A stretch of 64,000 bases of DNA, taken from positions 248,001 to 312,000 of the forward strand of contig JAHYIO010000008.1 in assembly GCA_020543525.1 (NCBI GenBank). The letters run 5' to 3'. Shown one piece after another: positions 29,910 to 37,003 of this stretch (position 1 is its first letter; each line of letters opens with the position of its first letter). Under the pieces are notes generated by a model. That model saw only the letters and a list, made by a program, of their open reading frames with translations, was not told the origin of the DNA and searched no databases. The position numbers and the translations under genes are program-made. This DNA comes from Coriolopsis trogii. Its lineage: Eukaryota > Basidiomycota > Agaricomycetes > Polyporales > Polyporaceae.

Positions 29910-31711
29910 ATGTCGTCCCTCCCTCTGTCTCCTTTTGCGATTCGGAGTGCCTTCGAGTCTTTGTGAGTCGCGCTTCTCCCGTCCGTGCTGGGTTGACAAC
30001 CTGATCCAGTCAACAGGTATACGTTCGAATACTGCGGTCTTGCGCTCCTCAGTGAGTGAATGAGCGGTTGCATAAGCATCCTCGAAGCTGATGAAACCTG
30101 CAGCAATTGCGGCGTATGACTGGCTCATCTCGCTGGGTGATGAGGTAGAATTCGTTTGGGCACCGATAGGAGACGTTGGCTTTCGCTTGTGCTCTACCTC
30201 TTGGCGCGCTATGCTCCCATCGCGAACTCAATACTCTCGAATAGCACTATCGGGCCGTACTCAAATTTGGTGCGTCCTGACAACTCATAGACAGAGCGAG
30301 GGCTAATATGCTCGTGCCAGGGGTGAGCGTATGAGTCACAAGCGACGTATGCATAACGGTGTGCGTCGGATCTAACATACATACACAGGTGCCACGTCGT
30401 CAACTACGTCAGCGACTTCCTCCTGGCGTTACTTCCCTTGACCCCAGCAGGTACATCGTTGAGCCCATGATAACTGTACAGGGTCTCACCAGTCCTGAAC
30501 TGAACAGTTTTCTCCGCATTACGCGTCTATTGTCAGTCCGGAACATCATCTTCAGTAACGGCAGCCACCTTCCTGCTCTTGGTAGTGCCCGTCATAACAA
30601 ACACCGTACGTACCTTTTGGCCTGGGGCGTATAATTTCCGAGACTGATGATGGGCTTGCTTCAGTACGCCAACGTCACCTCGACCGTGCATATACTCCCT
30701 CCACCCTTTAACTGCTCATCGACCGGTATTCTCTCACCAAGGACAGATAGCATGTGAGTCACACACTCGAGCTCTCACACGTACTGAGCATGAGATCGCT
30801 GATACGATTGGATCAGACGTGAGCCCGAATCTTATCTGGATGTCCGAGCTGAATGAACTGATCTCCGGGTGGCAAGTCAGTATCACCTCGCGCGCGTGCG
30901 CCGTCGTGGCAGAGATCATCGTCCTCACCGTTACCTGGAGGCACACTTACAAGCAGTACAAACTTTGGACGTACTTCGACTGTCGTTAGTCGCTCTCCTG
31001 CGTATTGTTATACGACGGTGAGGCTCAGCGAGGTTCCAATGCTGGAATGATCTATTGATTGCCTAATTCTGCCAGGAAGTATCTACTTTGTGTACGTCCC
31101 AGATGGCTTGCGTGCGCCTCTTGGCACACCACGCTGACAATACCCTCTCCTGTACACAGGGCGATCTTCATCCTGAACGTCTTACACATCGCGCTCGTTG
31201 GAATAGCCGTGAGTTGCAGTCCCATTCCACCACGTGCGTTATGCAACCCCTCGCGCTCATCCACCACGTCTCTCTCGTTGCAGACGACGCATGGCATCAG
31301 TACGCTCACGGGCAACGCGACGAGCTACGTGGCTGTCATCGTCGACTCGTACGTGTACACTCTGCGTGAGAGTGATCGTCGTCTGACTCGGATTCGATCC
31401 CGGCCCGGACTCGAAGGTCCTCATCCATTCTCGTGGCGAAGTTCATCCTCGACCTCCGCCGGGCGGATCGCGCGCAATGTCTCTCCTCCGGCCAGACCGC
31501 CTTCAGCGAGGACTCTTCGCACACGTTTGTCGCGTCTTTTGCTGGACCGACTGGCACGCTCGTGTTCCGCGGTGGAGACCATCCACTCCGTATAGACGGG
31601 CATGGTCACGCACTCGGTTCCGGCGACGGTAGTAGCTCATGCAACCTTGACGAGATTGAGAGAGTGGCGCAGGTCGACAGTAGTCCCTCCTACTACCACG
31701 GATGGCCTTAG
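29910..31711 (+). pseudogene. DUF6533 membrane protein, paralogue A (frameshift and stop)
   Basis: Same exon plan as paralogues B and C. Exons start at 29910 (MSSLPLSPFAIRSAF), 30017-30051, 30104-30269, micro-exon 30321-30322, 30389-30450, 30508-30605, 30665-30753, micro-exon 30817-30818, then 30877 onward, ending at 31711. The DUF6533 signature YDWLISLGDEVEFVW is clear, and later exons match the helices of B and C (VFSALRVYCQSG, VLHIALVGIA, VAKFILDLRRADRAQ). Two lesions are seen. In exon 3 the frame shifts by one base between about 30166 and 30178. An in-frame TAG lies at 30987-30989, just before SLSCVLLYDG. Splice sites remain intact, so inactivation looks recent. Confidence 0.82.
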
Positions 31712-33100
31712 GGTCGGATGGAAGTCGGTAGAACGCTGTCGTACCTCTGATGCGGCTAGAGCGTGACAGGTGACGGGTGTTGACGGGTTGATTCCTGTTT
31801 GAGGCGGTGAGCCTGTTTGGCGCGATGGAGGACTGCAGTGCCAACTCACCGTTGCGGATGCGATCTTGTAGGTAGAGCTTGGCATCCACATATGTCGAAT
31901 CCACCGCTGGCAAGTCGGGCTCGTGTCATGTTGGCGAAGCATGTGAACCAGACAGGCATGACATTATGAGAACCGTAAAGACTCGCAGCGTGTTCTCGTG
32001 ACGGTGCTATGGGTCGCTCAAGAACTTTGAAGCTACTACGAGGTTGTACCACCCATGATAGTAGATTTCGTGCACAAGAGGTGTTCGACACGGCCAACGT
32101 TCCAGGCGTTGATGATATCGATGCTCCAACAACGTTTTGTGAGCCGACCGCTTCGGAACGACTGACTGGACGGCGTCATCTGAGCGTCGCCACCGTCGCT
32201 GAGTCGAAGTCCCAGACATCATGAGGAAGGGCTTCTCGGCTCAAAGAGGCACTGCCATGTTCGGCGAGTAGTCTATCTGTTAATTTCTTCATCTTCGGGG
32301 TGGTTCTTTCCGTGTTGATAGGGCATCGGTTCATACATTCTTGCAGAATCATGATATGTCGTACTCTTGATCCCGCAGACTCTGTTGACAATCGCGCCGG
32401 CAGGGAGACGCCGCGTACTAGAGGCCTGAGACTCCCTGACGACGGCGGAGGCGGCGTATTCGGCGTACATCAGGTGAGCGGGACGCCTCACCTTCCCTCA
32501 TGGTGACGTCTGCCTCCGATGCCCTCCTGAGCCTCCAAGTGCTTACGTGTCTTTGTAGGCATCGTTGCATACACTCTCTGGGGAAAGCTCCTCGCTGTAA
32601 ATTGATCAATACACACCTCACTCCAGCTATTTTCTGCTGTGGGTCCATTGCTTGCCGCAACAACTTGAACCTCCAAATTACACTGAAAGCTTACTTTCCG
32701 CGACTATTGATATCCTGTCGGCAATACTTACAATTGCCCTGGCAAGTACATCACAGCAATGATCTTCTTACCACAGTTTGGATATTATTCGCGCTATCAG
32801 GGGGACGTCTCTCCATAACTGTCACCATATAATGTCTGATGGTAGTGCCCGTCGCTGCCAGCATTGTAAGTGTACATCATGGTAGCCCCTCGGGTGTGAT
32901 GTTTACTCAGATGCCTCGACAGTGTCACTCAACCTCACGTCTACTCTAGGTCCTCGAGTCTGTAGTGGCCATACAATCACGAGCTCAGTCAATCCAGCCT
33001 CACCCCGACCCGGGAAGTCAAAAAGCGAAGTTGAACGACAGACATAGTATATCTCACGCATATCGAGCGTTCGCAACGCTGTCTGAGCTGAACTCCGCTC
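31712..33100. other. Intergenic region between DUF6533 copies A and B
   Basis: About 1.4 kb. Isolated short frames exist, for example minus-strand DSTYVDAKLYLQDRIRNG ending at a possible donor near 31850, but I could not chain them into a gene. Decayed remains of another family member are possible. Confidence 0.35.
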
Positions 33101-34819
33101 TCAGCAGGGCTGTCTCTCAATCCGTTCGTCCTCCAAGTCGGCATCCGCAGTGGATATCGAGGGACATATTGGCCCTCCAAAAGCAGCGACAAAGGCCGGC
33201 ATAGACCTTTCATCGAACCCAGCGGGCCAGCTAGCGCTGCTATTGCTAATCCGCTGCACGCTATCCGCGCGGCGGAGATCGAGCATGAACTTGGCGACAA
33301 GTACCGATGTGAAACTGTGTGATATATTCATCATCGTATCGATGAAATGAAATGCAAAGGGCACGACTCACGTGTCAACGATAATGGCGACGTAGCTCGT
33401 AACGTTGCCGGTGATCACGCTCAGTGGGCGGGTCATCTGAGAATGGGACGGACGGACAGTGACGATGAGAGTCATGGGATTATCTTTCTTGTAGATGACT
33501 CACTGCAATGGTGAGGAGCACTATGTGTGCGATATTGAGACTAGCGAGGGTGCTGCGTGGTATAATATCCGTAAATGTTGTGATGCAGGTTTGAAGCTCG
33601 TCTCTTCACATACATGAAGTAAAGACTCCCTATGGGAGTCGCCAACGTCAACACCGAGCATGACAGCATGTTCTGGCACTCTGCAGAGCTCACCGTCATA
33701 TAAGAGCACGCCAGAAAGAGTGCCCAGTCCTCGTATCTTGAAATTCTTCTGCATCTTGTATTGTTTGTATGTGGTCGTCCAGGTAATAAGGAGGGCAATC
33801 ACCTCTCCTAACAGGGTGCAGGTACGCGAGAATATAGTGACTACAGTGCCTGTGGTATCAATGCGGGGAATTGGTTTGTAGATCGTGCCATGGCCTTACA
33901 TACCTCTTGTTGACCAAAGTCAGCCAACATTGTCCTCGAGCTTGGAAGTGAACCACTCACTTGATATCTGTCAGTGGGGAAATAGATGTTGCTGAGCAAT
34001 TGAAGGGCGGCGGGAGTATCTCCACAGTCAACTTGACTGCTGCGTACTATCCTCAAAGTTGTCACGAACTTGAGCCATTGAGGAGACAAAGTCAGATACG
34101 TACGGTAGTCGTCATCGTCGGTACCATCAGCAGAAGGAATGTAGCTGCTGTCACTGACCAACGTCTTCCGGATAGAGCGTAGACTCGCAGCGCAGAGAAT
34201 GCTGGCCAGTCAAGCAGTAAGTCCCTGCCGCGCGTCGCACCTGAACCGCAGTAGTGCGCTTACCTGCTGGTCCCAACGAGATGACTGCCCAGAGGACGTC
34301 ACTTAGATATTCGACGACATGGCAACTATTGAATCGGATCCAATATGGAGTTGTATTGTGAAATTGTAGGCCATAACTCACCCCTAAAAGACAGCATGAT
34401 CGTCAAGTTATACTGCAGCATCGATTCGGAAGTGGCAAACCATACCAGGACAGAATATGGTCCTATAGTGGTGGCCGAGAGTATCGCGATGGCGACTGGC
34501 AAGTAACGCGATAATACATAAACCAGTGATGCCACAATGCGTTTTCTGTCAGTGTTCCAGATGAGGCTTATCTCATCATCCAAGGATATAAGCCAATCAT
34601 ATGCAGCGAATGCTCAGGGAGCACGCATGGCAATGAGTTGCAGGACGTGTGTCATAGATTTGGTGATGGACGTACTGAGAATCGCGAGACCGCGGTATTC
34701 GAGAATGTACCTGTCACATAAGTCAGCGTCTTGATGGTCGCTGTGGGGCAATCAAACTTTTCTCACAATGACTGAAGAGAATTTCTCGTCAAGGACGAGA
34801 TTGGGGGGGAAGCAGACAT
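33101..34819 (-). CDS. DUF6533 multi-pass membrane protein, paralogue B
   Basis: Start ATG at 34819 (MSASPPISSLTRNSLQSL), stop at 33101, about 330 residues from at least 12 exons. The N-terminal DUF6533 segment (YDWLISLDDEISLIWNTDRK) is followed by about seven hydrophobic helices, including SLVYVLSRYLPVAIAI, LSDVLWAVISLGPA, VTAATFLLLMVP, VIALLITW and LASLNIAHIVLL. The loop PPPFNCSATS has a potential N-glycosylation site. The C-terminus has the family motif VAKFMLDLRRAD and a disordered tail. In-frame joining with consensus sites requires 2-base exons at 34382-34383 and 33904-33905. Function of the family is unknown; topology suggests a plasma-membrane or endomembrane protein. No lesion found. 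Confidence 0.82.
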
Positions 34820-35316
34820 CGAATCGTATAGGTAAGGTGCATCGCATCAATTACGAGTGCGGCTTTTTATCTCGGGTTCCGGGCTCGACCGGACACGAGA
34901 AGCAGCGAACTCCGAGCGCGACGCCGCCAAAACAACGTGGTCCGCAGCGCGTCCGTAGGGCTCGAGGTGCGCTCCGAGGTGTACCGCCGTATGACACATC
35001 CACGCACCTCCGGTGAAGCAGGGAGCCTACGCACCTTCTGCGTCTGCCACGTTCTAGCGTGTCCTGACCAGTGCATCGAAAGATTCGCGCAGCCCTCAAT
35101 CTCGGTCCGCGCGGGAGACAGTCTGGAAGGGATGTATTTCGAGTAACGCGTGATGTCATTCGAGGCGCGCGCCCGAACGACGTCGCAGAGCTGTAAATAG
35201 CCCAGGAACACTCGAGCCGCACACTGAAAAACCAAGAGCGTGTAAGTACCTCAGCCTTGTGTATAGCCGGTCGAGTGATTGTCAGTCTGCTATGTAACAT
35301 ACCGGTCGAGCTTCCC
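34820..35316. other. Intergenic region between DUF6533 copies B and C
   Basis: About 500 bp holding the upstream region of copy B and the 3' side of copy C. A gagataaaaag element on the minus strand (near 34862-34872) lies about 45 bp upstream of the B start and may be its TATA box. No gene. Confidence 0.4.
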
Positions 35317-37003
35317 TCAGCTCTCAGCCTCTTCTACCATGGCCATCGTAGTACCGGTTGGTCCGGCAAAGGCAGCCACGAAGGCTGGCAGTGATATATC
35401 GCCCAAGACAGCGGAACAGCTACCAACTGTCCCACAGGCCCGGTCCGCGCGGCGGAGGTCGAGCATGAATCTTGCCACGAGTACTGACGTTAGACTATCC
35501 GTCGACTTGTTAGCGCTGGGCAGACAATATGCAAGGGACGACTCCACCTACGTGTCGACGACTGTGGCGACGTAGCTAGCGACGTTGCCGGTGACCACGT
35601 TGACTTGGTGGGTCATCTAAGAGTCGGACGGATGGACATGGAAACCAATGTTGAGACTCATGGGAGGTATCTTGGTGGAACGTCACCTACGGCTATCGCC
35701 AGAAGCACTATGTGTGCAATGTTGAGACTAGAGAGGACGCTGTATTGCACGATAGACGAATGTCGGGTCATGAGAGTTGGAACACGTCTTGACACGTACA
35801 TGAAGTACAGACTCCCTATGGGAGTCGCCAATGTCAACACAGAACATGACGGCATGTTCTGGTACTCTGCAGAGCTCACCGTCATATAAGAGCACGCCAG
35901 AAAGAGTGCCCAGTCCTCGTAGCTTGAATTTCTTCTGAATCTTATATTGTTTGTATGTGGTCGTCCAGGTGACAGCGATGGCAATCATTTCTCCTACAAC
36001 GGTGCAGGCACGCGAGAATATAGTGACTGCACGAGTCTGTAGCCTCAGTACGAGACATTTGTTGTTGGACGGATTCTGGGCGCACATACATCTTGTTAAA
36101 CGAATTCAGCCAAGATCATCCTCGAGATTGGGAGTGGGACACTCACTTGATATCTGTCAGTGGCGAAAGAGATGTCGTCGAGCAGTTGAACGGTGGCGGG
36201 AGAGCCCGCACAGTCAAGTTGACTGCTGCGTACTGTTTGGGTTAGTCTCTGAGGTATTACAGACTCGAGGCACATGCAAGGTAGACTCGATGCGTACAAT
36301 GGTCGTCACCATCGGTACTATCAGGAGCAGGAACGTAGCTGCTGTCACTGATGAACGTCTTCCAGATAGGGCGTAGACTCGCAGCGCTGAGAACGCTGTC
36401 CAGCTAAGCCGTAAGTTGATGCGGCGCGTTGTACATGAACGGCGATAGTGCCCTTACCTGCTGGTCCCACGGAAATTATCACACATAGTACATCACTCAC
36501 GTACTTGACAACTTGACAGCTGTGAGACCGTTTTCAATATGAGATTGTGTTGTGAATCGCCATGGGTTGCGACTTAGTACTTACCCCTGAAAGACAGCAC
36601 GATCATCACGTTACATTGCAAACTACTGAGAAGCAGTAGCACAACTTACCAGGAGAGTATATGGTCCGAGAGTAGTGTCCGAGAGTATCGCGATGATGAT
36701 TGGCGCGTAGCGCGACAGTGCATAAACTAGCGATGCTCCGATGTGTTTCTTGTCGGAGATCCAGAAGAGGTCTACCTCGTTATCCAAGGAGATGAGCCAA
36801 TCGTATACAGTGAATGCTTGGATAGCAAGCAATATGGTTAGCTGCGCGTGCCGTAGAATACTGTACGCACTGAGTAATGCGAGACCGCGGTAGTTCAGAG
36901 TGTACCTGTTGATGAGTTTGGAGTCAAAACCTGCTTTGTCGCGCGATGGCGTTCTCACGCACAATGACTCGAGAGAGCCTAAGGAGGCCTGAGAAGAAGA
37001 CAT
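35317..37003 (-). CDS. DUF6533 multi-pass membrane protein, paralogue C
   Basis: Start ATG at 37003 (MSSSQASLGSLESL), stop at 35317. Exon order matches B: YTLNYRGLALL, then YDWLISLDNEVDLFWISDKK with helices to LGPYTLL, then micro-exon 36585-36586, CQVVKYVSDVLCVIISVGPA, AFSALRVYALSGRR, YAAVNLTVRALPPPFNCS, micro-exon 36090-36091, TIFSRACTVVGEMIAIAVTW, LSSLNIAHIVLLAIAV, MTHQVNVVTGNVASYVA and the C-terminal VARFMLDLRRADRAC with a short acidic end. B and C are tandem, about 500 bp apart, and much closer to each other than to A. No stop or frameshift was found. Function unknown. Confidence 0.82.

Follow-up and report, generated by a model that had tools for sequence, protein, structure and literature searches.

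Probable two-nucleotide exons at two fixed positions in the DUF6533 gene family of Coriolopsis trogii

How can a gene keep its reading frame when two of its exon junctions do not match in phase? Three copies of a gene with the DUF6533 domain (A, B, and C) raise this question in the DNA analysed here, a window of 64,000 nucleotides (nt) from the wood-decay fungus Coriolopsis trogii. The initial annotation had proposed that each gene contains two frame-restoring exons of only 2 nt. Our analysis supports this proposal and widens it beyond the three copies: at each site, it holds for most of the 93 paralogues examined. With a probability of about 0.92, we regard these as real and constitutive exons, two per typical gene, that are ancient and were spread by gene duplication.

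In gene C (positions 35317..37003, minus strand), a 13-exon model of 315 amino acid residues with both 2-nt exons is open from ATG to stop, and its GT-AG introns are 54-74 nt long. Microexon 1, GG (36585..36586, minus strand; tttcag/GG/gtaagt), is flanked by DUF6533 exon 3, which ends in phase 0, and by exon 5 (36458..36519, minus strand), which has 62 nt and starts one base ahead of a conserved Cys codon. The predicted mRNA junction is ACTCTCCTG-GG-CTGTCAAGTTG with the microexon, yielding Leu-Gly-Cys, and CTCCTG-CTGTCAAG without it. Microexon 2, AT (36090..36091, minus strand; aacaag/AT/gtatgt), lies between exon 7, which ends in phase 2, and exon 9. Gene B (33101..34819, minus strand) also has an open 13-exon model (331 residues) with both 2-nt exons, GG at 34382..34383 (ttttag/GG/gtgagt) and AG at 33904..33905 (aacaag/AG/gtatgt), both on the minus strand. 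In genes B and C, the frame shifts if one 2-nt island is omitted. Copy A (29910..31700, plus strand, 3' end approximate) leaves a single frame in exon 3; the islands, GG at 30321..30322 (tgccag/GG/gtgagc) and AC at 30817..30818 (gatcag/AC/gtgagc), both on the plus strand, and several exons are still discernible. All six islands were re-read in the sequence, and the initial coordinates proved right, with canonical flanks. The eight neighbouring introns in B (62, 56, 55, and 63 nt) and C (63, 65, 55, and 63 nt) agree with the claimed 55-65 nt, and, as had been stated, B and C are the two fully open copies. These exons are thus shorter than 3 nt, have canonical AG and GT boundaries, lie between two introns of normal size, and are required by the frame and by the conserved residue context. 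In the search with Pfam PF20151 (DUF6533), B (48.1 bits, E 1.3e-12) and C (40.1 bits, E 3.8e-10) both exceeded the curated cut-off of 24.1 bits.

The genome contains 125 DUF6533 matches, and we examined 93 of these copies, 3 in the window and 90 fetched. In models made with a family profile, site 1 had a 2-nt exon in 66 of the 93 copies, and in 9 the two bases were part of the following exon (fused copies); site 2 had a 2-nt exon in 63 and an exon of 5, 8, or 11 nt in 12. Both 2-nt exons were found in 48 copies (about half), and 129 modelled 2-nt exons occupy the two fixed positions in the 93 copies. The 62-nt exon at the Cys position recurs across many paralogues. Against the 2-nt reading, 18 of the 93 copies per site have neither a 2-nt, a fused, nor a 5-, 8-, or 11-nt form, and five of the 18 exceptions at site 2 have modelled microexons of 1, 6, 6, 7, and 9 nt. 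The gene-wise models contained small spurious exons at both termini, and their middle part was used; the profile-based model of copy A was bridged by an artefact intron.

As the family profile includes the Cys column, models based on it lean on expectation. In a profile-free splice-path search, a 2-nt exon was obtained in 38 of 72 solved loci at site 1, where the next commonest size appeared twice, and in 39 of 45 solved loci at site 2 (hand count). The arrangement "2 nt then 62 nt", sought in all 93 copies without selection, protein profile, or requirement for Cys, fits 67 of them, with Cys next in 62. Other lengths fit fewer copies: 2 then 59 nt in 7, 2 then 65 in 7, 5 then 62 in 15, 8 then 62 in 14, 11 then 62 in 5, 5 then 59 in 1, and 8 then 56 in 2. 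The same Cys codon was reached in 12 of the 15 loci fitting 5 then 62 and in 10 of the 14 fitting 8 then 62; thus, alternatives exist for a few copies.

At site 1, 41 of 66 regions contained AG(2)GT islands with good splice scores (shuffle mean 0.84), and at site 2, 49 of 63 did so (shuffle mean 0.82); all these regions were pre-selected for having a 2-nt exon. Spacings other than 2, from 0 to 15, gave 0-4 islands each, except for 11 islands with a spacing of 6 at site 2, which may reflect GTNNGT donors. That the islands are AG-NN-GT motifs arisen by chance, or that the genes are degraded, as the broken frame of copy A might suggest, is hardly credible in view of these shuffle values, the open frames of B and C, and the 67 copies of 93 as opposed to 7 for neighbouring lengths. 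Removal of the island donor cost a median of 26.6 score units at site 1 and 27.6 at site 2; L012 and L056 lost less than 5 units without the site-1 microexon, which counts against it in these copies.

Alternatively, each pair of introns could be one long intron (median 118 nt), and the missing bases could come from a shifted or non-canonical site, for example if the AG of acceptor 2 were coding. AG plus the next base would then encode Ser or Arg before the Cys, and these are frequent residues there. However, AG precedes the acceptor-2 AG in 0 of the 129 cases, so that the acceptor would be non-canonical everywhere, and the span from donor 1 to acceptor 2, 98-150 nt, exceeds the 375 other introns in the 48 models with both microexons (40-91 nt, in a model search range of 40-110 nt). 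Fused copies also show AC, GC, TG, or AG directly after a canonical acceptor, and we consider the long intron very unlikely. A GC donor two bases downstream was judged by eye to be possible in copy A only, since the bases in B and C forbid it.

In the fused copies, the following exon opens with the two bases, which shows that these bases are coding. Paralogue L066, which has no intervening intron, reads ttacag/AGTTGTCGCGCACTT, and L079, in which the intron is present, reads atacag/AG/gt..(61)..ag/TTGTCGCGCACTG; the same bases thus occur without and with the intron, and both paralogues share a clade with A, B, and C that has an SH-aLRT of 98. The tree was a quick search with 91 of the 93 rows (L002 and L064, with scores below 500, were left out) in which 40 of 88 inner branches are open, and copies neither 2-nt nor fused were left out of the count of changes; for this purpose, L069 was relabelled as fused, whereas L022 and L033 were reassigned to the 2-nt class. 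The second base is G in 56 of 66 site-1 microexons but in only two of the ten fused copies, five of which lie in one clade (p 8e-5 in a Fisher test that takes no account of kinship).

Could the islands instead be splicing intermediates, as in a zero-nt recursive splice site or a stwintron, with no base kept in the mRNA? Stwintrons have been described in fungi, and they share with the present case adjacent introns and consecutive removal reactions. In favour of this reading, 38 of the 66 site-1 islands and 7 of the 63 site-2 islands are AG/AG/GT, in which a second AG stands directly before GT. However, the islands without AG (28 of 66 at site 1 and 56 of 63 at site 2) offer no second acceptor, the frame breaks without the two bases, and fused copies retain them as coding. 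In a stwintron, as described, the internal intron splits a splice signal of the external intron (a donor, branch, or acceptor element); here, two coding bases separate two complete introns. A zero-nt recursive site likewise does not match, as the two bases are needed for the frame. We therefore hold this reading to be highly improbable.

The islands, phases, frame, fused copies, and conservation can be read from the genomic sequence, and they suggest how 2-nt exons would be spliced. At site 1, the microexon would supply positions 1 and 2 of the codon ahead of the conserved Cys, between introns of phases 0 and 2; at site 2, it would finish one codon and open the next, between introns of phases 2 and 1. 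The introns on either side of each microexon are short and ordinary (44-83 nt), and the spliceosome would recognise them by intron definition and remove them in turn. After removal of the upstream intron, the two bases, now joined to the preceding exon end, would serve together with it as the exonic part of the following 5' splice site. As skipping of one or both exons shifts the frame, inclusion should be constitutive. The microexons were probably present in an old ancestor and inherited through gene duplication, and loss of a flanking intron in some copies would have fused the two bases to the neighbouring exon.

As a point against the 2-nt reading, the island donors score below the upstream ones (4.26 versus 6.29 at site 1; 5.97 versus 7.23 at site 2). 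Donor compensation reached significance only in the pooled data (p 3e-4), with p values of 0.31 and 0.07 for the single sites. Random pairs of the introns around site 1 were 0.545 and 0.531 identical, compared with 0.522 and 0.519 after shuffling, and the median protein identity among copies was 0.32. Thus the islands have been kept although the introns around site 1 are now hardly more alike than chance. The weak site-1 donors, and the ideal suitability of a 2-nt exon for switching the frame, would suit real microexons that are regulated, so that skipping turns receptor expression off. This is unlikely, as the microexons occur in most paralogues examined and the near-chance intron identity leaves no obvious shared regulatory motif. 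It is similarly doubtful that the two exons act as a gate, in which regulated skipping would silence single genes and allow receptor choice at the splicing level in a GPCR-like family of more than 100 members.

Annotation pipelines had been expected to miss such exons, and this is partly borne out. Among 98 annotated NCBI proteins, mostly from polypores and judged at the protein level, site 1 was not clean in 41 and site 2 in 52-54; on the other hand, the residue-Cys pair of site 1 is intact in 51 of the 98. The ordinary junctions j5 and j6 were disturbed in 5 and 8 relatives, and j2, j9, j10, and j12 in 19, 27, 28, and 12, respectively; the length-variable junction j11 was disturbed even more, in 63 of 98 relatives and 31 of 48 of our own models. 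Seven relatives (221-437 residues, on contigs of 965-2315 nt), which we infer to derive from transcripts, are all clean at site 2, and four of the five that extend across site 1 are clean there as well. One of these four, P0100, lacks the Cys; another relative, P0095, has Ser-Cys at site 1 with a 2-residue gap nearby. The best identity of a database protein to our models was 67%, and thus there was no same-species protein. A pattern search of viral contigs gave 471 matches with no relative among them.

Sub-codon exons are already known; what is new is a paired, family-wide set. In plants, APC11 and VPS55 have 1-nt exons (PMC4674806, PMC8831610) that, according to the passages concerned, lie between two introns, restore the frame, are conserved, and in some relatives are subsumed in a larger exon, and sequential, recursive-like intron removal was proposed, as here; in contrast, the present exons have 2 nt and occur twice per gene in dozens of fungal paralogues. 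The 1-nt exon of Fusarium CYP621A is presented as the first case in fungi of an exon of the smallest size (PMC12940212). It was likewise revealed by a phase mismatch, with an intronless relative as length marker, and RNA reads back it there, but it concerns the orthologues of one P450 gene. The same paper also refers to exons 2-5 bp long from Arabidopsis, Drosophila, and humans. Among wood-decay basidiomycetes, Phlebia radiata is described as having very short exons, some less than one codon (PMC6540522), in a general remark whose passage gives no analysis of family, position, or conservation. In the P450 family of Phanerochaete chrysosporium, which also has small exons across a gene family, the microexons encode 2-10 residues and the shortest named is 6 bp (PMC1184071). 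The passages on the DUF6533 domain found in open-licence papers are silent on exons. A phrase search of open-licence literature for 2-nt exons gave only matches that were off topic by title and abstract, and as PMC12940212 cites such exons elsewhere, wording is no safe test for them. The suggested challenge to splicing models is lessened by the 1-nt exons of Arabidopsis (PMC4674806) and Fusarium (PMC12940212).

The predicted fold of a relative has seven helices resembling solved GPCRs, with Ste2 as the best match; DUF6533 proteins appear to be receptor-like membrane proteins. SNB1, a mushroom protein that shares the domain with the window copies, is described as having seven predicted transmembrane helices and an extracellular N terminus, and its family as needed for fruiting-body patterning (PMC10949477). 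Sub-codon exons have so far appeared, in the passages available, in single genes or passing mentions. In contrast, a single genome now provides 129 modelled 2-nt exons, and sister copies without one of the flanking introns can serve as internal controls, which opens to test how the spliceosome handles an exon too short for two-sided contact and in what order the introns are removed. Since both sites are frequently disturbed in the annotated relatives, database models are probably wrong for a large GPCR-like family, one member of which has been linked to the development of fruiting bodies (PMC10949477).

Including the islands proposed by the initial annotation, which are 2-nt exon candidates in an AG-NN-GT context, yields complete 13-exon genes for copies B and C of the DUF6533 (Pfam PF20151) paralogues in the window, each above the Pfam cut-off. 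All six islands were found where it had placed them, with canonical flanks: 30321-30322, 34382-34383, and 36585-36586 in A, B, and C, respectively, before a conserved Cys (site 1), and 30817-30818, 33904-33905, and 36090-36091 further 3' (site 2). In copy A, the islands are retained and exon 3 is out of frame. The 38.8-Mb genome contains 125 DUF6533 matches, of which 93 (three in the window and 90 elsewhere) were examined and the other 32 were left out; the 1.14-Mb contig carrying the window holds 22 of the 125 (counted by hand).

Profile-guided spliced alignment gave a recurring exon layout, with exceptions, of 35, 161-170, 2, 62, 95-101, 86-92, 2, 135-147, 16, and 49 nt. The 16-nt exon 10 (35800-35815 and 33614-33629 in the window) recurs in many paralogues. 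At site 1, 66 of the 93 models have a 2-nt exon, followed by Cys in 64; nine are fused, with the two bases opening the following exon (64 nt, or 2+62, in four; 162 nt, or 2+62+98, in four; 186 nt in one), and 18 are other, including L022 and L033, where the 2-nt exon precedes one of 68 nt. Locus L069 is compatible with the fused form. At site 2, 63 models have 2 nt, seven 8 nt (L009, L041, L052, L059, L065, L068, and L082), three 11 nt (L035, L053, and L071), two 5 nt (L014 and L084), and 18 are other. The longer forms look as if enlarged by whole codons; five of the 18 others, with modelled microexons of 1, 6, 6, 7, and 9 nt, break this 2-modulo-3 rule. Both 2-nt exons occur together in 48 of the 93 copies. 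Because the family profile includes the Cys column, these counts lean on expectation.

That profile was absent from two splice-path searches and a direct test. At site 1, a 2-nt first internal exon was picked in 38 of 72 solved loci (L090 had no solution and 20 loci lacked the anchor motif), 34 times followed by a 62-nt exon; the next commonest size was seen only twice. At site 2, a 2-nt exon was picked in 39 of 45 solved loci (counted by hand), one further locus having no solution. In the direct test, 67 of the 93 copies accommodated a 2-nt and then a 62-nt exon, and Cys, which was no condition, was the next codon in 62. Control pairs fitted fewer copies (2 and 59 nt, 7; 2 and 65, 7; 5 and 62, 15; 8 and 62, 14; 11 and 62, 5), and at a score of at least 20, the numbers were 58 versus 0-6.

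Strong islands number 41/66 (site 1) and 49/63 (site 2), against shuffled values of 0.84 and 0.82, in regions preselected for an island. The introns around site 1 show identity near chance, slightly above shuffles, and median identity among the 48 proteins is 32%; thus, recent copying is not the reason for the islands. The span from the first donor to the second acceptor is 98-150 nt, versus 40-91 nt in 375 other introns (model maximum, 110 nt). Removing the island donor cost a median of 26.6 (site 1) and 27.6 (site 2) units, and less than 5 units in two site-1 cases.

A terminal G ends 56 of 66 site-1 microexons versus 2 of 10 fused copies, five of those ten being a single clade, and 9 of 63 site-2 microexons. 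Island donors are stronger at site 2 (5.97) than at site 1 (4.26); donors after G are weaker with the sites pooled (p = 3e-4), and not significantly so within each site. This pattern would be consistent with recognition of the two bases as the exon portion of the 5' splice site.

The best single argument for the 2-nt exon is the pair L066 and L079, which share AGTTGTCGCGCACT; a 61-nt intron separates AG from TTGT in L079, and L066 has no intron. Both fall in the clade of A, B, and C (SH-aLRT 98). The tree requires three changes between the 2-nt and fused states at site 1. L054, L005, L006, and L010 form a small clade in which site 1 appears to be fused or altered.

Two protein searches, with about 8000 candidates scored in each, gave at least 105 relatives: 98 annotated NCBI proteins, mostly from polypores by name, and seven unnamed ORFs. 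Among the annotated relatives listed, and at the protein level only, site 1 is not clean in 41 of 98 and site 2 in 52-54, and the residue-Cys pair at site 1 is intact in 51. The ordinary exon junctions j5 and j6 are not clean in 5 and 8, j2 in 19, j9 in 27, j10 in 28, j12 in 12, and j11 in 63, where our own models also vary (31/48); j1 is not spanned. Around the 16-nt exon 10, the figure is 27-28. The unnamed ORFs listed are clean, again in protein, at site 2 in 7/7 and at site 1 in 4/5 of those spanning it, one of the four (P0100) without the Cys. The predicted seven-helix fold of one relative (P0009), whose best solved match is the yeast pheromone receptor Ste2, points to DUF6533 as a large fungal GPCR-like family.

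Sub-codon exons as such are already known: reports describe 1-nt exons in Arabidopsis (PMC4674806) and Fusarium (PMC12940212, which also cites 2-5 bp exons in other organisms), and sub-codon exons are mentioned for Phlebia (PMC6540522). Judging from genomic DNA, the typical gene of the GPCR-like DUF6533 family contains two predicted frame-restoring 2-nt exons, which appear to be old and family-wide.
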